Origin: a virus
Strand: one strand, 5' to 3'
DNA length: 22,211 bases
Virus record (IMG/VR): IMGVR_UViG_3300009509_000109
Location: 1-22,211 of that record
In this document: piece after piece, positions 1 to 14,764 of the stretch
Numbering within the stretch: position 1 is the first letter of the stretch
Layout: the number at the start of each line of letters is the position of its first letter
Position numbers and translations under genes: made by a program
The notes under the pieces: model-generated
Seen by the model: the letters and a program-made list of their open reading frames with translations, nothing else
What the model was told of the DNA's origin: nothing
Database searches by the model: none

Positions 1-519
1 CCGGCGGCCCTCGTTGTGCAGGCCGGCAAAGGCCTCGGTGTTGTTCTCGGACCAGGGCACCAGGTCGATGCGCCAGTTCTTCTCGTGCGCCGGATCCGCG
101 CTGAAAAACGCGGTAGCGGTGAACTTGAACAACTCGCGCGTCATGCTGAGTGCATGCCACTTGGCCAGCTCGGGCCAGGTCTTGCCCTTCAGCTGCGCCT
201 CGGTGTTGGCGGTGACCACGCCACGGGTGTCGACCATGGTGGACATGGCCCAGTCGATCAGCCAGGCCACCAGTGCTGATTTGCCGATGCCGTGGCCCGA
301 TCGCCTGGCGTACTGCAGCACATCACCAACGCCAGCAAACTCGTTCATCTGCAGCCGGACGCCGATGTCCTTGAGCACCACGAGCTGCCACTCGTGGGGC
401 TGTTTGCCCTCCAGCCGGCCGGATCCCCAGGGGTAGTTCCACAGCACGAACCCCAGGGGATCGTGCCGGAACTCGATCGCTCGCTCCTCCAGGGTCAGCT
501 GGCGTGCCGGCTCACCCAT
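1..519 (-). CDS. terL: Terminase large subunit, N-terminal ATPase part (runs off left edge)
   Basis: The large terminase is the ATP-driven motor that pumps phage DNA into the prohead and cuts it with a C-terminal nuclease. Reading the minus strand from the ATG at 519 gives 173 codons still open at base 1, so only the N-terminal ATPase portion is present. The early residues include PHEWQLVVL (about 41-49), which resembles the adenine-binding segment before the motor domain. The Walker A motif SGHGIGKS is at about 74-81, followed by RGVVTANTEAQ, a typical strand after the P-loop in this family. Walker B and the nuclease would lie beyond the window. The start codon overlaps the stop of the upstream small-terminase gene (TAATG), which implies translational coupling. 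The assignment is firm; the exact terminase subfamily is not determined. Confidence 0.9.
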   Translation of the reverse strand, partial: MGEPARQLTLEERAIEFRHDPLGFVLWNYPWGSGRLEGKQPHEWQLVVLKDIGVRLQMNEFAGVGDVLQYARRSGHGIGKSALVAWLIDWAMSTMVDTRGVVTANTEAQLKGKTWPELAKWHALSMTRELFKFTATAFFSADPAHEKNWRIDLVPWSENNTEAFAGLHNEGRR

Positions 520-908
520 TACTGTAGGAAGTCTTGCATATCGTCAGGCATCAGCTTGCTCTGCAGCTCGGCGCTGAAGCTGCCGGCGCCCATACGGCGC
601 AACCGCTCCTCGGCCTCGAGCATGCGCTCAGTGGCCGTGTTGTCGACAGCCACCTCGACCCGCTGCCCCGGCCGGCCATCCAGCCGGTTGGCCAGCTCCT
701 TGATCGCCTCCAGGTCGCCCTCGGCCGCGGCCACCAGTAGCTTCAGGACCGCGATGTCCATCAGCTGCCGGCCGGTCAGATCCTTGCGGACCTGCTGCCC
801 GGTCTCGTCGGTCAACAGCACCTTGTTCACGCGCTTCATCGCACGGTCGATCGCATCGCGCCAGGGAGCGCCCTTCACCGCGTTCCTGTTACCCTTCGGT
901 GCAGCCAT
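519..908 (-). CDS. terS: Putative terminase small subunit (129 aa)
   Basis: The small terminase subunit recognises the packaging site and loads the large subunit on DNA. The call rests mainly on position: it lies directly upstream of terL with a TAATG overlap. The N-terminus MAAPKGNRNAVKG resembles the lysine/asparagine-rich start of many phage small terminases. The body is charged and helical, with a basic segment near residues 13-25 and an acidic Glu-rich C-terminal third, fitting an oligomeric DNA-binding protein. The frame is open upstream to 1070, but I chose the ATG at 908 because it has a GAGGG Shine-Dalgarno eight bases upstream on the minus strand and begins the recognisable N-terminus. 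It could be another packaging accessory protein, since sequence similarity alone is moderate. Confidence 0.7.
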   Translation of the reverse strand: MAAPKGNRNAVKGAPWRDAIDRAMKRVNKVLLTDETGQQVRKDLTGRQLMDIAVLKLLVAAAEGDLEAIKELANRLDGRPGQRVEVAVDNTATERMLEAEERLRRMGAGSFSAELQSKLMPDDMQDFLQ

Positions 909-991: not shown

Positions 992-1039
992 CAGTCGTTT
1001 CCCGCACTGTATATAAGCACCAGTCATTTTTCGCACTGA
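992..1039. promoter_or_regulatory. Two operator-like 19-bp repeats upstream of terS
   Basis: CAGTCATTTTTCGCACTGA at 1021-1039 and a diverged copy at 992-1010 (15 of 19 positions equal) start 29 bp apart. Each is bounded by CAGT and ACTG, giving an outer dyad. On the minus strand they flank a TATATA that could be the -10 of a late terS promoter, although I see no good -35. A third copy lies at 1350-1368 beside early promoter P1. Binding sites for a phage regulator are the likeliest role, which is inference. Confidence 0.45.
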
Positions 1040-1096
1040 AATACTGAATACCATGGAAATCTCTCCACAATTACTCCAACACTACTTGGCCCGTCC

Positions 1097-1132
1097 CCCA
1101 CTCTCTCCCTCTAAAAAGGGAAGAGATGTGGG
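1097..1132. other. Bulged stem-loop next to the iteron array
   Basis: CCCAC, TCTCT and CCCT on the left pair with AGGG, AGAGA and GTGGG on the right. This gives 14 base pairs with two single-base bulges and an A-rich loop. No T-tract follows on either strand, so it is not a standard intrinsic terminator. Its place between terS and the iterons suggests an origin or control structure. A role is not established. Confidence 0.35.
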
Positions 1133-1149
1133 AGGGCAGTAGCCAAAGT

Positions 1150-1312
1150 CGGAGCAAGGAGCGGAGTCGATCGGAGTAACAGCCGGAGCAGCTCATTATG
1201 TTGAAAATCAGTCGGTTACGAAATCTCCCAAAAAGTCCGGAGCAGTTCGGAGTAAAGTCGGAGCAGCGCAAAAAATGGGCCGGAGCAGGTTTGGAGTAAA
1301 TGGTCGGAGTAA
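1150..1312 (+). repeat. Iteron array CGGAGCAR / CGGAGTAA, candidate replication origin
   Basis: Ten same-strand copies of an 8-bp unit begin at 1150, 1162 (CGGAGTCG), 1172, 1184, 1238, 1248, 1259, 1281, 1292 (TGGAGTAA) and 1305. The variants are CGGAGCAA, CGGAGCAG and CGGAGTAA. Starts within clusters are 10 to 13 bp apart, close to one helical turn, so a protein could load side by side on one face of the helix. An inverted copy, TTACTCCA, lies at 1071-1078. The array ends one base before two DnaA boxes and is followed by an AT-rich stretch. That is the layout of an iteron-type origin. The region codes for nothing convincing. A multi-site operator is the alternative. Confidence 0.7.
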
Positions 1313-1313
1313 G

Positions 1314-1334
1314 TTATCCACAGACTTATCCACA
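1314..1334 (+). promoter_or_regulatory. Two perfect DnaA boxes (TTATCCACA)
   Basis: TTATCCACA occurs at 1314-1322 and again at 1326-1334, 12 bp apart in the same orientation. This is the high-affinity consensus of the host initiator DnaA. The tandem pair directly abuts the last iteron and precedes an AT-rich stretch (1351-1395), which could serve as the unwinding element. Together this suggests DnaA-assisted opening of an origin, as in plasmids. The boxes are read directly; origin function is inferred. Confidence 0.75.
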
Positions 1335-1349
1335 GGACGACTGGGCCCT

Positions 1350-1368
1350 CAGTTATTTTTCGCACTGA
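1350..1368 (+). promoter_or_regulatory. Third operator-like 19-bp repeat, just upstream of P1
   Basis: CAGTTATTTTTCGCACTGA differs at one position from the copy at 1021-1039 and lies 13 bp upstream of the P1 -35 box. The same factor could therefore act on both the leftward late side and the rightward early promoter. Confidence 0.5.
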
Positions 1369-1381
1369 GTGAAATTATGTG

Positions 1382-1409
1382 TTGACAATACATCCTGAGC
1401 TGCTATGCT
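1382..1409 (+). promoter_or_regulatory. Promoter P1 for the first rightward operon
   Basis: A perfect -35 box TTGACA (1382-1387), a 16-bp spacer and an extended -10 TGC-TATGCT (1401-1409) form a strong sigma70-type promoter. It precedes the gene at 1449 by about 40 bases. The -35 sits in an imperfect dyad (GTGTTG-A-CAATAC). The whole promoter is closely matched by P2 near 7.9 kb, so both are probably controlled together. Confidence 0.8.
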
Positions 1410-3892: not shown

Positions 3893-4175
3893 CATAGATG
3901 AACTGATTGTTGCTATAACAAGCCATGATATGGGCGATGGGTACTTTGACGCTGCAAATCTTGTATCCAAATTGCTGCCGATCAAATATCACGCGCAGTT
4001 AAAACAGCTATTCAATGGCCCGGTCTGGGACGGTGATGTAATAAGCAAATCATACCGGGACGCTTTACTCAGTTACGGACTAGCAATACGTGTCTGCGTG
4101 AAATCAGAACAGGGATATACGGGGCTGACATATTTTGGTGGCACAGTAACCAAAGCACTGGAGAAAGAGACATGA
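3888..4175 (+). CDS. Hypothetical protein (95 aa) in AT-rich cassette
   Basis: This family is not recognised. The product is a small soluble protein with a helical first half (MSIDELIVAITSHDMGDG) and a probable beta segment near the end (GLAIRVCVKSEQGYTGLTYFGG). The gene is clearly AT-richer than the surrounding operon and uses AT-ending codons (ATA, AAA, TTA), which suggests more recent acquisition. Both its start and its stop fall in copies of the 24-bp junction repeat, as if it had been inserted as a unit. It overlaps its neighbours by ATGA. Confidence 0.6.
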   Translation: MSIDELIVAITSHDMGDGYFDAANLVSKLLPIKYHAQLKQLFNGPVWDGDVISKSYRDALLSYGLAIRVCVKSEQGYTGLTYFGGTVTKALEKET

Positions 4176-4176
4176 G
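4153..4176 (+). repeat. Gene-junction repeat, copy 2
   Basis: Identical over 24 bp to 3869-3892 and placed in the same way across an ATGA stop/start overlap. The two copies enclose one complete gene. Confidence 0.85.
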
Positions 4177-4597
4177 TAATTTAGTTGAACATGCAAGAAT
4201 GGAGTTTGAAGCACTTGGCTGGCCGGGTGAAGATAAAATGCAGCAGTTGATCTGTGAAAACATAATAGAATTGCTTGAAGCATTTGCTGCTCAGGGCCAC
4301 AGTGGATCATCGGCTCATTATGCATTAAACCTTTTTGAAAAGCTCGTTAGGTTTGATCCAATATCTCCGCTCACAGGTAATGATGATGAGTGGGAAGATG
4401 TTGGTGACGGCTTGTATCAGAACAAACGCGATAGTGAGGTATTCAAAGAAGATGGAAAGGCGGCATACTGGATAAGGGGAAAAGTCTTTCGCGAGCCTAA
4501 TGGAACTTGTTTCACAAACAGTGATAGTCATGTATCAGTGGAGTTTCCGTGGACAAAACCAGAGACGGAAATTATTGAAGTGGAGGAAGAGACATGA
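4172..4597 (+). CDS. Conserved phage early protein with TGxDDEW motif (141 aa)
   Basis: I recognise the pattern from many unrelated phages, although no function is known to me. The N-terminal half is helical and ends in FDPISPLTGNDDEWEDV. The second half reads QNKRDSEVFKEDGKAAYW, then KVFREPNG, then DSHVSVEFPWTKP, predicted beta-rich. The conserved Asp/Glu/Trp cluster and the QN-x-R-x-S-x-VFK-x-x-G motif define the family. The gene shares the AT-rich composition of its upstream neighbour and is bounded by the junction repeat (start) and its shortened copy (stop). It is translated from an ATGA overlap on both sides. Confidence 0.7.
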   Translation: MSNLVEHARMEFEALGWPGEDKMQQLICENIIELLEAFAAQGHSGSSAHYALNLFEKLVRFDPISPLTGNDDEWEDVGDGLYQNKRDSEVFKEDGKAAYWIRGKVFREPNGTCFTNSDSHVSVEFPWTKPETEIIEVEEET

Positions 4598-5365: not shown

Positions 5366-5734
5366 TCAACGCACCTCTATCCCGAACCGGTCCAGCTGGC
5401 TGCGCAGGTACCCGTACTCCAGCCCCAGCAGCTCGCAGTCTGCAAGGCAATTCACTCCGGTCAGGTATGCCACCCCGGTGCCGTAGTGCTTGTCCTCGGG
5501 GTCCAGCATCACCACGTCAAACACGGCCTGGCTGATAACCGCCAGCAGCAGCTGTTGCTCCGGGTACGTGGTGTCAATCATATCAGCGATGGTGCGCATG
5601 CAGGTCCGGTGCAGCAGCGCCAGTATCCGCAGTTCCTGCTTGCGGGGCTTCATGGCGGCCCAACGCTTGGGGTTGTCGGAGGCGGCAATTGTTACCGCGG
5701 CGTGGAACGCCTGCCCCCCTCCCACCATACTCAA
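5366..5734 (-). CDS. Small conserved phage protein downstream of the helicase (122 aa)
   Basis: The function is unknown. The product is helical, with MKPRKQELRILALLHRTCMRTIADMI in the first half. It then has LLLAVISQAVFDVVM and a C-terminal part resembling a small family in Pseudomonas phages that ends in a Y-L-x-G ... C-x-L-x-G-x-x-x-x-Y-x-R pattern. It starts in an ATGA overlap with the primase-helicase stop, so it is probably expressed with it and may assist replication or its control. The stop lies about 80 bases before the bidirectional terminator, which closes the operon. Confidence 0.6.
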   Translation of the reverse strand: MSMVGGGQAFHAAVTIAASDNPKRWAAMKPRKQELRILALLHRTCMRTIADMIDTTYPEQQLLLAVISQAVFDVVMLDPEDKHYGTGVAYLTGVNCLADCELLGLEYGYLRSQLDRFGIEVR

Positions 5735-7782
5735 TCGCCCCCCAGCATGTTGCGCATGTAGATCAGGGCATGCTCCCCGGAGTGCGCCTGCTCCAGCACG
5801 CCCCGATTGATCAGCCTGTCGATCGACCGCTTGATGTTGCCCTCTCTCCTGTTAGGCGCCAGCAGGTGTATGCGCCCGGCCAGCTCCTCCAGTAACAGCG
5901 GCTCGCTCGGCCGGAATTTCTTCCAGTGCTCGGTGTAAATCGTCTTCGCGAGATCGTACACCGCCTGTTGGTCCTGGGTCAGTTTCGCCTGCGCACGGGC
6001 GGTCTGGATCTCTTCCTCCGCCGCGCCCTGCAACCGGTCCAGGGTCATCTCGCTGACCGGCTGGCCATCCTCATCCACCACGCCCATGATGTAGTTCAGC
6101 CGGCCCTCGAAGATCAGCGGACGGGATGGCTCGGGCGCACCCTTCAGTTTTTCGATGAAGGCCTGCGTCAGAATCCGGGTACCACTGCCGGCCACGCGCT
6201 CCATCCGGACCCGGAAGTCGGTGTTGGCCAGCAGCGCCGAGCTGCCGCGCGCGCTGCGGTTGTTGGACTTGCTGGCATGGTGCACCAGGACAATAGTAAC
6301 GCCCCACTCCTGCGCCAGGTCGTGCAGGATCTTGATCAGTAGGGACACATCCTTTGCGCTGTTCTCGTCCAGGATCGCGTTGGTGGACATGGTGTCGATG
6401 ACGATCATGCCCGGCCGATCGAGGCCCCACTGGGTCACCATCGATCGCAAGAACTCCAGGTGCGAGGGGTCCATCAGGTTTAGCCCGCGGGACGAGAGCC
6501 ACAGCTTCTCCAGGTCCGCGTGCCAGTAGCCCCGCTGCTGCCGGAGTGCCTCCAGCCGGCGCCACAGGATCATGTTCCCCTCGCCGGCCAGGAACCACAC
6601 TGGGCCCGGGTTCACGATCCTGTGCCCGTGCCACTCCTGACCGGTGGATACCGCCGCGGCCAGGTCCAACATCAGGTAGGACTTGAGGGACTGCGAGTCC
6701 CCGTACAGGATCCCGACCTGGCCCTTCTCCAGGATCCCCTTGACGAGCCAGGAGGGGGCCATGGACGCGTGACTGACACCGATGTCGGCCCGCACCAGGA
6801 ACGACTTCAGGGCGTCCTCGACAGACGTCTCCCGGCCCGCTGCCGGCGGGGCGTGCTCCTGGAACCCGGGCACCGGGTCGAACACCTTGGTCGGGTCAAG
6901 GCTGGTGGCCTGTGTGACCATCTTGCCGATGCCGTACTTCCACAACCAGTCGCTCACATTACCAAACGGGCGGTGCCGCTCGGCGCAGGCCCAGGCGTAC
7001 GGGTTCGCGGACATCATGCCGAACACCAGCCCTGCATCCTGCAGCCGGCACTGAAGCGCGCCCGCGGTGTTGTGAATCGCCCGGGACTCGTCATTGCCCC
7101 AGGCACTGGCGTCACCGCGGTCCAGGTAGTTGAGGTACTTCTGGTCGAGGTTGAGGGTGTGGTAGTCGGGAAGTTCTTCGGGGATGTCGGGTGATTCTAC
7201 GGTGACGGTGCGGCTGTCGTTCGACCAGTCACTGCAGGCCTGCGCGAGGCGTGCTGCCGGCGGCAGGACTGACCCGTCCTGGGCCCACTGGTACATGCCG
7301 ACCCCGTTGATGGTGCTCGGCGCTGCGACGATGTAGCCACCATCCGTTCGCATGTCGAGCCCGCCGAAGTCGCCCTTGTGCGTGAAGTTCCTGAAGCCCG
7401 GCGTGTAAGCGAGGATCAGGTGCTGGCCACCGGTCGGGGTCTGTTGCACGGGACCATGGAAGGTTTCCTGCGCGATAGCCTGGTAACTGCGCAGGCCGTC
7501 CTGCCCGTTCTTCATGTCGATGTCCAGGGCGATGATCCCGGACTCGGCGCCCATGACCAGACCGATGTTGGCCCCCGGCCAGGTCTGCCACCAGGACCGG
7601 ACAGTCTCGGGGTCGTTGGTGGCGATCTTCTTCCAGGACCAGCCCCGCATTGGTAGCTTGGTGCCGGGTTGTAAGGGGAAGACCCGGATCCCCTGGCTGG
7701 CGTACCAGAGGGCGGCGTCCATCAGAGACATCGCGTTCGTTAGCGAGAATGACGCGGACAGGACCCGTGCTGCCACGGTCAC
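5731..7782 (-). CDS. Bifunctional primase-polymerase / AAA helicase fusion (683 aa)
   Basis: This is a one-chain primase and helicase of the phage/plasmid replication type. The N-terminal prim-pol domain (about 20-185) shows the YASQGIRVFPL start and the catalytic acids D87 and D89 in ALDID. It also has TGGQH (117-121) and YIVAAPS (150-156). The RepA-like ATPase follows: Walker A variant GDSQSLKS (361-368), Walker B IVIDT (459-463), and VHHASKSNNRSARGS (500-514), the His/Arg signature of this family. It should unwind DNA and lay primers, probably at the iteron/DnaA origin. The start is uncertain. GTG 7782 overlaps the stop of an upstream leader peptide (GTGA), while ATG 7731 (MSLMDAALWY) fits the usual domain start better but lacks a ribosome site. 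Confidence 0.9.
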   Translation of the reverse strand: MTVAARVLSASFSLTNAMSLMDAALWYASQGIRVFPLQPGTKLPMRGWSWKKIATNDPETVRSWWQTWPGANIGLVMGAESGIIALDIDMKNGQDGLRSYQAIAQETFHGPVQQTPTGGQHLILAYTPGFRNFTHKGDFGGLDMRTDGGYIVAAPSTINGVGMYQWAQDGSVLPPAARLAQACSDWSNDSRTVTVESPDIPEELPDYHTLNLDQKYLNYLDRGDASAWGNDESRAIHNTAGALQCRLQDAGLVFGMMSANPYAWACAERHRPFGNVSDWLWKYGIGKMVTQATSLDPTKVFDPVPGFQEHAPPAAGRETSVEDALKSFLVRADIGVSHASMAPSWLVKGILEKGQVGILYGDSQSLKSYLMLDLAAAVSTGQEWHGHRIVNPGPVWFLAGEGNMILWRRLEALRQQRGYWHADLEKLWLSSRGLNLMDPSHLEFLRSMVTQWGLDRPGMIVIDTMSTNAILDENSAKDVSLLIKILHDLAQEWGVTIVLVHHASKSNNRSARGSSALLANTDFRVRMERVAGSGTRILTQAFIEKLKGAPEPSRPLIFEGRLNYIMGVVDEDGQPVSEMTLDRLQGAAEEEIQTARAQAKLTQDQQAVYDLAKTIYTEHWKKFRPSEPLLLEELAGRIHLLAPNRREGNIKRSIDRLINRGVLEQAHSGEHALIYMRNMLGGD

Positions 7783-7915: not shown

Positions 7916-7943
7916 TTGACAATACCTCCGGCAGTGCTATGCT
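7916..7943 (+). promoter_or_regulatory. Promoter P2 for the replication operon
   Basis: TTGACA (7916-7921), a 16-bp spacer and an extended -10 TGC-TATGCT (7935-7943) match P1 in both boxes and spacing. Over 36 bp, 29 positions are equal to P1. The -35 box lies within a perfect odd dyad GTATTG-A-CAATAC (7913-7925), a likely repressor site. It is placed to transcribe from the gene at 7980 towards 16564. Confidence 0.8.
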
Positions 7944-8533: not shown

Positions 8534-8756
8534 CGCACTTGACGTCCTGCGCGACCGACTTCTGGCCAAGTCGGACGACACGGCCATCATCGAGCAGCAG
8601 TTCGGCGGGGGCTGGGTCCCGGTCGCCCGCATCGGCCCCTCTCGTGAAGATTTCTACATCCCCGCTGAAGCCCTGCACTACGGGGGCTCCCTCCGGGTCC
8701 GGTACCTGGTGCCGGAGGACAGCGGCAACCTTGAGGGCACACCCCATGACCAATGA
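8526..8756 (+). CDS. Hypothetical protein (76 aa, GTG start)
   Basis: The family is not recognised. The product starts MANALDVLRDRLLAK and then has a probable beta-rich region (GGGWVPVARIGPSREDFYI). GTG 8526 is chosen because no ATG occurs in frame before the next gene. It has GAAGAGG upstream and overlaps the preceding stop by eight bases, the same junction type seen elsewhere here. Its stop overlaps the start of the following gene by 11 bases. Confidence 0.5.
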   Translation: MANALDVLRDRLLAKSDDTAIIEQQFGGGWVPVARIGPSREDFYIPAEALHYGGSLRVRYLVPEDSGNLEGTPHDQ

Positions 8757-8940
8757 CAGCAAGATCGCAACCATGAACTTCAGGCTATCGAAACGCCTGA
8801 AGACCGGATTCAACAGGGCCTGCCGCCGGCACAAGCTGGAGCAGAGCACCACCTGCCGGGTACTGATGGCCATGTTCACCGCGGGCGAGATCGACGTCAC
8901 CCGCGTCGAGGAACTCCGGGACCAGAACCCCAGCGATTAA
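8746..8940 (+). CDS. Putative ribbon-helix-helix DNA-binding protein (64 aa)
   Basis: The pattern IATMNFRLSKRLKTGFNRACRR, then SxxCRxLMxxF, fits a short ribbon-helix-helix (Arc/CopG-like) fold. In that reading a strand (ATMNFRL) contacts DNA and two helices dimerise. Similar small phage proteins keep FRLxxxLK-x-x-F and S-x-x-CR-x-L. It may regulate phage transcription, for example at the dyads near P1 and P2, which is inference. The C-terminal end NPSD and its stop lie in the first of two 48-bp direct repeats. Confidence 0.55.
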   Translation: MTNDSKIATMNFRLSKRLKTGFNRACRRHKLEQSTTCRVLMAMFTAGEIDVTRVEELRDQNPSD

Positions 8941-8971
8941 CCCACCACAGAGGACCACCACCATGTCGTTA
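8924..8971 (+). repeat. 48-bp direct repeat, copy 1
   Basis: It covers the end of the ribbon-helix-helix-like gene, the intergenic ribosome site and the first three codons of the excisionase-like gene. It matches 9192-9239 at 47 of 48 positions (G8933 versus A9201), with a period of 268 bp. Confidence 0.9.
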
Positions 8972-9193
8972 CCAATCCGAATGAGAAGCCCGCGGCAAAA
9001 CACCGCGCCGCGCACCGATGCCGACGATTTCACAGTCCGGGAGCTTGCGGCCGCCCTGCGCGTCCACAACCAAACGATCTACAAAATGCTGGCACGCGGA
9101 GCACTCCGATCCTACAAGGTCGGACACGCCCGCCGCATTCCCCGCGAAGAGTTCGACAGGATCCGCGGGCAAGCCCGCCAGCGCCGAAACTAG
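8963..9193 (+). CDS. Excisionase-like helix-turn-helix protein (76 aa)
   Basis: Residues about 23-67 (FTVRELAAALRVHNQTIYKM, then ARGALRSYKVGHARRIPREEF) match the MerR-like winged helix of the excisionase/HTH_17 family. A helix-turn-helix is followed by the characteristic beta-wing ending in G-x-x-RRIPREE-x-x. Such proteins bend DNA as excisionases or act as small transcription regulators. No integrase is present in this window, so regulation is equally likely. The first 22 residues are unlike the family. The DNA for them is made of pieces duplicated from the downstream gene, so the 5' end looks chimeric. A GAGGACC site lies before the ATG. Confidence 0.8.
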   Translation: MSLPIRMRSPRQNTAPRTDADDFTVRELAAALRVHNQTIYKMLARGALRSYKVGHARRIPREEFDRIRGQARQRRN

Positions 9194-11019: not shown

Positions 11020-11895
11020 ATGACCACAGAAGCAGTCATCTACGGCATTGCCAACTACATCAACGTCAACGAGCCCACCCCGGTGAAGCCGGGCGCGGAG
11101 CCGAACTACCGCATGCGGTTGTACATCGACACCAACCAGACCGACATGAACGCGGTGCAGGCCGCCGTCAACCTGGCTACCCAGGAACAGTTCGGCGCGA
11201 ACCCGCCGGCAAACCTGGCCATGCCGTTCCACCCCAGTGACGAAGACGGTCTGCCGGGCTGGTGGCACATCAACACCAAGAGCAGTTCCAAAGTACCGCC
11301 CGCGCTGTTCAACCAGGCCCGCGTCAAGGTGGCCGCACTCCCGCCGAACGAGATGCCGGCCGGCTGCCGGGTGGCCGCGGTGGTCAAGTTCAAGGGGTAC
11401 CGCAACGGCACCAACGTCGGCGTCGGGACCTACCTGCAGGCCGTACAGCTGATCGACGCCAGCAACCCAGTACACCTGCTGACCGGCCGGGACTACAGTG
11501 ACTGCTTCCACGCGGTCCCCGGAGCCCCGCAGGAGCTGGCCCCGACCATGGTGTCCCAGCCGCAACAGCAGCAGCCGATGCAGCAGCCACAGCAGCCGGG
11601 TGGCTATTACCCCCAGCAGCCCCAGCCGAACCCGATGCAAGTCCCCCAGGCGGCGCAGATGGGAAACGGAGTAATGCCCGGCGCACCCGCTATGAGTGCC
11701 CCGGGCCAGGTCCCGACTACTGCCCCACAACCGGCGCCCACTGGTGTCCCGGGGATGAACCCGCCGGCCGGCTATGCACCGAGCCAGGATGCTCTCGCAC
11801 AGATCCCTGCTGCCCCTCCTGGCCCGGGTGCGCCTGCGCAACCTGCTGCGGGATACCCTTCTAACGGGGGCGGCCAGTGGCCGTACCAGCAATGA
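11020..11895 (+). CDS. DUF2815 single-stranded DNA-binding protein with long disordered tail (291 aa)
   Basis: DUF2815 proteins resemble T7 gp2.5 and bind single-stranded DNA during phage replication and recombination. The first 175 residues contain the fold: an RMRLYIDTNQ strand, the PFHPSDEDGLPGWWHINTKS region and AAVVKFKGYRNGTNVGVGTY. After that, about 115 residues are low-complexity Gln, Pro, Gly and Ala repeats (QQQQPMQQPQQPGGYYPQQP). The end GGGQWPYQQ is not acidic, unlike T7 gp2.5 or bacterial SSB. A CCAGGAG ribosome site precedes ATG 11020. Neighbours are the DUF2800 nuclease and DNA polymerase, as expected. Confidence 0.87.
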   Translation: MTTEAVIYGIANYINVNEPTPVKPGAEPNYRMRLYIDTNQTDMNAVQAAVNLATQEQFGANPPANLAMPFHPSDEDGLPGWWHINTKSSSKVPPALFNQARVKVAALPPNEMPAGCRVAAVVKFKGYRNGTNVGVGTYLQAVQLIDASNPVHLLTGRDYSDCFHAVPGAPQELAPTMVSQPQQQQPMQQPQQPGGYYPQQPQPNPMQVPQAAQMGNGVMPGAPAMSAPGQVPTTAPQPAPTGVPGMNPPAGYAPSQDALAQIPAAPPGPGAPAQPAAGYPSNGGGQWPYQQ

Positions 11896-12721: not shown

Positions 12722-14764
12722 ATGACCATCGTTGTGCACCACGACTTCGAGACCTTCTCGCGAGTCGACATCAAAAAGGCCGGCGGCCACAAGTACGCGA
12801 GGGATCCGAGCACCGAGGTTCTGATGCTCGCGTACGCCGTAGGCCGAGACCGCCCGCAGATCTGGGTGCCGGCAGAGGGCGAACCGATGCCGGTGGACCT
12901 CTTGGAGTTGACCACCGATCCGGAGGTCGAGTGGCATGCCTTCAACGCCCAGTTTGAGCGGTTGATATGGTGGCATGTTATTGGGCGCACGATACCCCTC
13001 GAACAGTTCCACTGCACCATGCAGCATGCCTGGAGCCTGTCCTTCAGTGGAGGGCTGGCGCAGGTCGGGGAGCAGCTCGGGCTGCCGGACGCCAGCCGCA
13101 AGATGGCCCGCGGTCACAAGCTGATGCTGAAGTTCAGCACCCCGGCTCCAAAGAACCACCTGGCCGATCGCTACACGCACGAGAACGCGCCGGAAGACTG
13201 GGCGGACTTCAAGAGATACTGCCTGCAGGACGTCATTGCCGAACGCGAGATCGAAATGCTGTTAGCCGGCTATCCAATACCCCGGCAGGAGCGGGACCTG
13301 TGGCTATGGGATCAGGACGTCAACGACCGCGGTGTGCCGGTTGACCTGTCCCTGGTGAACCGTGCGGTACACGTCAACAACGAGGCCAAGGCTGCGGCCC
13401 GCGAGGAGCTGGAGAGCATTACCTACCTGAACAACCCGAACAGCAACGCGCAGCTGCAGGCCTGGCTGTTCGCCCATGGTGTTGATGCCCCGAACATGCA
13501 GGCTGACACTTTGCGAAAGATCCAGTCCGAAAGCCAGGACCCAGCAGTGCGCCAGGCGCTCGATCTGAAGATGCAGCTCGGTAAGACATCGGTCAGCAAG
13601 TGGAACGCGTTCAAGGCGGCGACCTGTGACGATGGCCTGGTGCGAGGCATGTTCCAGTTCGCCGGAGCACAACGCACCCAACGGTGGGCCGGACGCATCG
13701 TGCAGCTGCACAACCTGAAGAGCCCGACCATCGAAGACCCGGTGACCGCAGCTGAAGACCTGTACCTTGAGTCCTCCCTGATCGAGCTGCTGCACGGCAA
13801 CCCGCTCGACTTCCTGTCGGAGGTCATCCGGTGTGCAATCACCGCGCCAGACGGGTGCGTGCTGACACCCGTGGACCTGTCGTCAATCGAATCCAGGGTA
13901 CTCGGGTACATCGCCAATTGCGCGCGCATTAACGCCACCTTCGCCGCCGGGATGGACACCTATAAAGATTTCGCGTCTGAGTACTACGGGGTCCCCTACG
14001 CACAGGTCACCGGGGCACAACGGAAGTTCAGCAAGCCCCCGGTGCTCGGGTGCGGGTACATGCTCGGTGCCGGGAAGCGGCCAAAGGAAGACGGCTCGCC
14101 GCCGGGCAAGCAGACCGGCCTGATTGCGTATGCCGAGGGGTACGGGGTGGACATGTCCTACGAGGACGCCAAGCGCGCCGTGGACACCTGGAGGGCCATG
14201 AACTGGGAGGTGGCCGACATGTGGTCCTGGCTCGGGAATGCGTGCCAGGACACCACCGAGCACTGGACCGTGCACGAGGGGTATTGCGTCAGGACCCACC
14301 GGGACAAAAACTTCCTGATGATCGACCTGCCGTCCGGCCGCAGCCTGCACTACTATGTCCCGATGGTGCTCGCAAAGATCCCACCGTGGGAGCAGGACCG
14401 GATAGATGCGGGGGAGATCAAGCCGGCAGACGCGAAGACCCGGCCGACCCTGACCTACATGGGTATGAACCAGAACGTGGGTAAGTGGATGCGGCTGACA
14501 ACGCACCCCGGGAAGATCACCGAGAACATTGTCCAGGCCATCGCGAGGGACGTGCTGTCCTTCCACATGCTGCGGATCGAATCAGACCTGGGCCCCATCA
14601 TCCGGGCCCATGTCCACGACGAGGCGGTGCCCCTTGTGCCGGAGAGCGAGGCGCGCGAGTACCTGGCGCACTGTGAATCAGTCATGCGCATCCCGCCCCC
14701 TTGGGCACCAGGGATACTGCTCGACGCCAAGGGTTTTATAACCAAGAGATACACCAAGGACTGA
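12722..14764 (+). CDS. Phage family A DNA polymerase with 3'-5' exonuclease (680 aa)
   Basis: This replicates the phage genome. The N-terminal proofreading exonuclease shows D8-F-E10 (Exo I), HAFNAQFER (Exo II, about 72-80) and Y-x-L-x-D in RYCLQDV (Exo III). The polymerase part has motif A VDLSSIESR (384-392, catalytic D385). The O-helix runs from R434 through K438 to Y446, and motif C is HVHDEAV (catalytic H632-D633-E634). At the O-helix site equal to E. coli Pol I Phe762 it has Leu442. No 5'-3' exonuclease domain is present, as usual for this phage group. GGAG lies about eight bases before the ATG. Confidence 0.95.
   Translation: MTIVVHHDFETFSRVDIKKAGGHKYARDPSTEVLMLAYAVGRDRPQIWVPAEGEPMPVDLLELTTDPEVEWHAFNAQFERLIWWHVIGRTIPLEQFHCTMQHAWSLSFSGGLAQVGEQLGLPDASRKMARGHKLMLKFSTPAPKNHLADRYTHENAPEDWADFKRYCLQDVIAEREIEMLLAGYPIPRQERDLWLWDQDVNDRGVPVDLSLVNRAVHVNNEAKAAAREELESITYLNNPNSNAQLQAWLFAHGVDAPNMQADTLRKIQSESQDPAVRQALDLKMQLGKTSVSKWNAFKAATCDDGLVRGMFQFAGAQRTQRWAGRIVQLHNLKSPTIEDPVTAAEDLYLESSLIELLHGNPLDFLSEVIRCAITAPDGCVLTPVDLSSIESRVLGYIANCARINATFAAGMDTYKDFASEYYGVPYAQVTGAQRKFSKPPVLGCGYMLGAGKRPKEDGSPPGKQTGLIAYAEGYGVDMSYEDAKRAVDTWRAMNWEVADMWSWLGNACQDTTEHWTVHEGYCVRTHRDKNFLMIDLPSGRSLHYYVPMVLAKIPPWEQDRIDAGEIKPADAKTRPTLTYMGMNQNVGKWMRLTTHPGKITENIVQAIARDVLSFHMLRIESDLGPIIRAHVHDEAVPLVPESEAREYLAHCESVMRIPPPWAPGILLDAKGFITKRYTKD

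Follow-up and report, generated by a model that had tools for sequence, protein, structure and literature searches.

For most environmental phages it is not known where replication starts, and the question raised by the present locus is whether a cluster of short repeats in a phage genome fragment is such an origin or instead a site of transcription control, packaging or partition. The window, that is, the whole stretch of DNA that was analysed, is the entire IMG/VR record of 22,211 b, a fragment without known ends. The repeats are placed in a 540-bp gap between terminase genes that run leftward and early genes that run rightward. The left edge of the gap is formed by the presumed small terminase gene (519..908, minus strand), which adjoins TerL and whose product has no family match and a single distant phage match. 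The original prediction took the repeats, together with two adjacent DnaA boxes, for a plasmid-type origin in a phage genome. The sequence evidence described here suggests that the region 1071-1400 is probably a phage replication origin, which resembles a hybrid of the origins of iteron plasmids, RSF1010 and pRN1.

The array consists of eight exact copies of the 8-bp unit CGGAGYAR and two degenerate ones, all in the same orientation on the plus strand between 1150 and 1312. The first group of units (1150..1191) contains CGGAGCAA at 1150, the degenerate CGGAGTCG at 1162, CGGAGTAA at 1172 and CGGAGCAG at 1184, while the second (1238..1312), which is set in an 11-bp phase, contains CGGAGCAG at 1238, 1259 and 1281, CGGAGTAA at 1248 and 1305, and TGGAGTAA, with one mismatch to CGGAGYAR, at 1292. 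The ten units of the original prediction are real and located as claimed, although only eight are exact, and the two forms that were said to alternate are both present but mixed, without strict alternation. Outside the array the exact unit occurs once on each strand of the window (at 11667 on the plus strand and at 5555 on the minus strand), and in 300 genomes generated by an order-3 Markov model the maximum was two exact units per 180-bp stretch. The spacings between units, which are 10-13 bp and multiples of these, fit an 11-bp period with R 0.91, and this phasing was matched by 0.08% of random spacings (p ~0.0008), which bears out the near-helical spacing that had been predicted. The phase is maintained even across the 54 bp that separate the starts of the units at 1184 and 1238.

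No relative carrying the same unit was found in the collections searched. Collection scans for three CGGAGYAR units within short gaps were discarded, the inspected matches being mainly coding repeats, as was a scan for two units and a DnaA box, which returned unrelated T4-like loci and a collagen-like coding repeat. The T4-like contigs share the pattern CGGAGTATTAACGGAGTATAAACG(G/A)(A/C)TTATCCACA upstream of a gene, and the likeness of this pattern to the window motif is coincidental.

The repeats are followed, as predicted, by two perfect DnaA boxes, TTATCCACA at 1314..1322 and again at 1326..1334 on the plus strand. These are the sole DnaA boxes with no more than one mismatch in the window, and they keep the register of the iterons (R 0.90 when both are included). 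The two iteron groups are separated by a 47-bp spacer, in which the sequence AATCAGTCGGTTA (1206..1218, plus strand) is a perfect match to the IHF consensus WATCARNNNNTTR, of which it is the one example in the 22 kb window against 0.36 expected; IHF may bind there. The AT-rich stretch that had been reported beyond the boxes (1335..1400) is AT-richer than the window and of low stability, but the difference is modest (55% AT versus 38%) and the stretch overlaps an operator-like repeat and an early promoter, which leaves it a weak candidate for an unwinding element. An alternative candidate is the AT-rich DNA beyond the hairpin described below (1038..1075, with 67% AT over 1040-1075). The ten least stable 50-bp segments of the window include those at 1038, which ranks third, and at 1348.

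A long imperfect hairpin, which spans 87 nt of the minus strand (1071..1157) with its loop near 1112-1117, can be formed at the left end of the array. In its outer stem TTACTCCAAC, the inverted unit at 1071-1080, pairs with GTCGGAGCAA, the first direct unit at 1148-1157. The inverted unit that had been noted at 1071 is present as TTACTCCA (1071-1078) with one mismatch, and it doubles as one arm of the hairpin. The original list of elements is thus confirmed in its repeats and boxes, but it omitted the hairpin, the IHF consensus and three copies of the repeat CAGTYATTTTTCGCACTGA that are considered below. The minus strand folds as DNA with -22.3 kcal/mol and a z of -5.36, a value equalled by 0 of 200 shuffles, the plus-strand fold of the hairpin region has a z of -2.70, and once GC content is corrected for, no other 97-bp segment of the window is as extreme on the strand that was tested. 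An Rfam search of the window gave no match.

Iteron origins combine iterons, DnaA boxes and a DNA unwinding element, and sometimes an IHF site (PMC4980987). The region is read as a probable origin because its arrangement (hairpin, iterons, IHF consensus, iterons, two DnaA boxes, AT-richer DNA) fits the parts known from iteron origins, and because the hairpin and the encoded enzymes recall RSF1010 and pRN1. The GC-skew, which had been proposed as a check, proved uninformative: its sign flips at the array (from -0.12 to +0.06), but transcription switches there too. The cumulative skew reaches its extremes elsewhere, at 4.9 and 11.9 kb, and those of the relatives do not mark their arrays consistently.

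The main rival to an origin is an operator array, in which a phage regulator would bind the repeats cooperatively and decide between leftward expression of the terminase genes and rightward transcription from the promoter at 1382, with DnaA acting as a transcription factor. Such a function would suit the position of the array between divergent gene sets, and it is suggested also by the surrounding sequence. The repeat CAGTYATTTTTCGCACTGA, which has CAGT...ACTG ends, occurs in three copies with at most three mismatches that flank the array, where 0.01 would be expected: a degenerate copy, CAGTCGTTTCCCGCACTGT, at 992..1010, a second, CAGTCATTTTTCGCACTGA, at 1021..1039, and a third, CAGTTATTTTTCGCACTGA, at 1350..1368, all on the plus strand. 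The third copy is 13 bp upstream of the -35 hexamer of an early promoter (1382..1409, plus strand; TTGACA-16-TATGCT), which is itself 70 bp from the last iteron. These repeats are probably the operators of a phage regulator, and in that capacity they already provide a regulatory element separate from the array. A second early promoter at 7916-7943 is near-identical to the first (TTGACAATACNTCC...TGCTATGCT), but only the promoter at 1382 has an adjoining array and DnaA boxes; since the twin manages without any array, an array is no obligatory component of this promoter type. Repression, moreover, needs neither perfect DnaA boxes in register with the repeats nor an IHF site nor a hairpin closed by iterons, and arrays of the same build are found after helicase genes in unrelated phages.

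The nearest syntenic phages (DSL-LC05, Thiohalocapsa phage MD04, and Vibrio phages 1.185, 1.021 and MZH0603) supply evidence on both sides. Arrays of short units are found in the same gap between terminase and early genes in DSL-LC05 (AGTGGGTCA), MD04 (CGGGTTGT) and Vibrio phage 1.185 (TTTGACACT), which favours an origin, whereas the absence of perfect DnaA boxes from all three speaks against one. The gap repeats of DSL-LC05 occur also as palindromes inside or beside promoter-like sequences, which is operator-like and favours control of transcription. When the points on both sides are weighed, an operator array is an unlikely explanation of the window, though the one among the rivals that has to be taken most seriously. 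In the MD04 record a stretch with CGGGTTGTC repeats, which contains the array of that phage, is present at both ends (43050-43454 and 1-127), and this terminal duplication is probably an artefact that arose when a circularly permuted genome was assembled.

The replication proteins attributed to the window in the original prediction are all encoded there. The gene at 5731..7782 on the minus strand specifies a 683-aa fusion of a PrimPol and an RSF1010-RepA-like helicase (Pfam Prim-Pol 8e-36 and AAA_25 6.5e-31; RSF1010 RepA 1g8y, E 2.8e-5), in which the Prim-Pol domain is N-terminal to a helicase of the RecA/RepA-like AAA_25 type, not of the SF3 type, and which is a candidate for initiator, helicase and primase in one. 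A gp2.5-like single-stranded-DNA-binding protein (SSB) is encoded at 11020..11895 and a family A DNA polymerase (PolA) at 12722..14764, both on the plus strand, and protein searches of the window place a DUF2800 exonuclease, a VRR-NUC-type nuclease and an SNF2 helicase in the same gene set. The initiator would be the PrimPol-helicase or a small DNA-binding partner, and an alternative iteron-binding candidate is the HTH_17/excisionase-type DNA-binding protein encoded at 8963..9193 on the plus strand. The early region also contains, at 1968-2447 on the plus strand, a gene for a RadC/JAB-domain protein (E 2.3e-48), immediately preceded by that of a DUF7417 protein. Among the early genes there is in addition an anti-defence gene of the Tad3 type (4172-4597, plus strand), whose 141-aa product matches the type I Thoeris inhibitor Tad3 (Pfam PF25185, E 1.1e-42).

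The suggestion that the fragment comes from a plasmid prophage is not supported by its gene content. Among the proteins scanned in this 22-kb fragment, neither a plasmid Rep initiator of the Rep_3/RepA_N type nor a RepC-like protein was recognised, nor were a ParA-type ATPase or partition gene, and the fragment yielded no recognisable plasmid-maintenance or linear-prophage genes. Origin function itself draws good support from the anatomy and from the phages with similar helicases that are described below. The scan results bear also on the reading of the array as a site for partition (centromere), incompatibility or copy control in a plasmid-like prophage. Its short direct repeats, spaced at 11 bp, do resemble plasmid centromeres, and a possible ribbon-helix-helix protein that might bind them was read by eye in the 64-aa product of 8746-8940 on the plus strand. 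That product matches no DNA-binding family, however, no partition gene accompanies it among the scanned window proteins, and the DnaA boxes and the IHF site fit an origin better, so that a partition site is highly improbable.

An origin in the window would share its features with several known replication systems without coinciding with any of them. Like the origins of the iteron plasmids P1 (oriR), RK2 (oriV), F and pSC101, it has direct repeats in phase, adjoining DnaA boxes and, to a modest degree, AT-rich DNA, together with an IHF consensus such as occurs in some of these origins (PMC4980987). It differs from them in the unit, which is 8 bp at a spacing of about 11 bp instead of 17-22 bp, in the number of copies, which is ten and not 2-7, in the large hairpin that is built in, and in the possession of a helicase, primase and polymerase of its own with no plasmid-type Rep recognised.

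In RSF1010, RepC binds the iterons, RepA unwinds the DNA and RepB' primes at stem-loops (PMC4234260). The oriV of this IncQ plasmid has in common with the window the homologous hexameric helicase, a primase of the AEP type, and iterons together with one or more stem-loops. Helicase and primase, however, are a single polypeptide in the window, where no RepC was recognised, and RSF1010 is not described with the DnaA/IHF arrangement of the window. The iterons of RSF1010 are 20 bp long, as against 8 bp here. The fusion of PrimPol and helicase is found in ORF904 of pRN1 and in phages of the BIP-1 type, where a winged helix follows an SF3 helicase. The pRN1 protein requires a stem-loop of about 100 nt (PMC4234260), a size comparable to the 87 nt of the window hairpin, but the window helicase is of the RecA/RepA type, its hairpin is joined by iterons, DnaA boxes and an IHF site, and the candidate origin is away from the replication gene. 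The satellite phage P4 also has short iterons (ori1/crr), which are recognised by its primase-helicase alpha, a protein with a C-terminal winged helix (in part PMC4234260); the primase of alpha is of the Toprim type, and the P4 iteron sequence is absent from the window.

The closest parallels are found in other phages with a RepA-type helicase. In those scanned, a noncoding array of 6-8-bp units is positioned directly 3' of the helicase gene. A hairpin usually accompanies it, either alongside or closed by inverted copies of the unit, and in some cases a DnaA box is present. The units are TGGGACA in ct3Oc712, GGTACA in 1N2-2, GGTTCA in PB15, TTTATAC in CRP-831 and GGAAGTA in EBPR siphovirus 5. 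These five phages share with the window the length of the iterons, a spacing of about 9-13 bp, and a hairpin that inverted copies either close or adjoin; they differ in the sequence of the iterons and in the location of the array, which in the window is in the gap between terminase and early genes, 4.4 kb from the helicase gene, a distance that counts against an origin. The Salicola phage CGphi29 has a strong hairpin and copies of GGGACA after its helicase gene, and in ctyzp037 and phi673 repeat clusters are present within the helicase gene itself. In the PrimPol-RepA family of the ct3Oc712 type, which is large in IMG/VR and shares DnaA boxes with the window, GGAC-type (GGGACA) iterons and an iteron-flanked hairpin follow the helicase stop codon in 33/33 IMG/VR loci, these being the loci with enough downstream sequence and including many close kin; a hand count gave a perfect DnaA box in 25 of the 33, and two boxes in 3. 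This conserved region would constitute a candidate class of origin. For the C-terminus of the ct3Oc712-type helicase, structural modelling predicts a winged helix (pLDDT 88) whose nearest solved folds are mostly winged-helix DNA-binding domains (Z 6-7), and such a domain would be a sensible one for binding an origin. For the C-terminus of the window helicase, a single-sequence model had no meaningful PDB match and hhalign gave no profile link, and a winged helix may be supposed there by analogy.

Searches of IMG/VR and GTDB contigs with the PrimPol, PolA and DUF2800 proteins of the window found no close relatives, and later scans yielded one distant DUF2800 locus and 16 distant SNF2 loci. A profile built from seven helicases was too diverse and was dropped as a scan query.

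The location of the arrays also bears on the remaining rival, a packaging (pac/cos) site. The small terminase would bind such a site, and the presumed gene for this protein starts about 160 bp to the left of the hairpin. The array adjoins the terminase genes, and small terminases are known to have repeated sites close to their own gene, as in lambda cosB. DnaA boxes are not known to play a role in packaging, however, and the arrays are away from the terminase in most phages of the helicase family. A weak argument comes from the IMG/VR loci with 42-72% identical large terminases, none of which has DnaA boxes or this array near the terminase; these loci do not conserve the presumed small terminase either. 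A packaging site is, if anything, even more improbable than a partition site.

If the region is a replication origin, a mechanism can be proposed that uses all of its elements. A phage initiator, for which the PrimPol-helicase or a small HTH protein that partners it is the most economical candidate, would bind the ten CGGAGYAR iterons, which at 11-bp spacing would present themselves on one face of the helix. IHF would bend the 47-bp spacer and thereby bring the two iteron groups together, host DnaA would fill the two adjoining boxes, and the neighbouring AT-rich DNA would open. One strand could then extrude the hairpin, with the first iteron and the inverted unit at its base, as a site for priming and loading, at which the RepA-like ring would be loaded and the PrimPol domain would lay primers, with elongation by the phage PolA and SSB.

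A more general proposal, to which slightly less than even confidence is attached, is that the window belongs to an undescribed class of origins common to phages in which a RepA-type helicase is fused to a PrimPol or Toprim primase. Such origins would be composed of 6-8-bp iterons in helical phase and a hairpin closed by inverted iterons, often with DnaA boxes, and the sequence of the iterons would be swapped between lineages. The window, with its IHF site and its two DnaA boxes in register, would be the fullest version known, shifted into the gap between terminase and early genes.

The locus would give the phage a self-contained start for the copying of its genome, of a kind better known in plasmids than in phages. 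If the module of iterons, hairpin and DnaA boxes does mark the origin in phages with RepA-type helicases, then sequence alone would suffice to locate their origins, many phages would be linked as a group to the way in which RSF1010 and pRN1 replicons work, and the fast turnover of iteron sequences would make the co-evolution of initiator and iteron testable.
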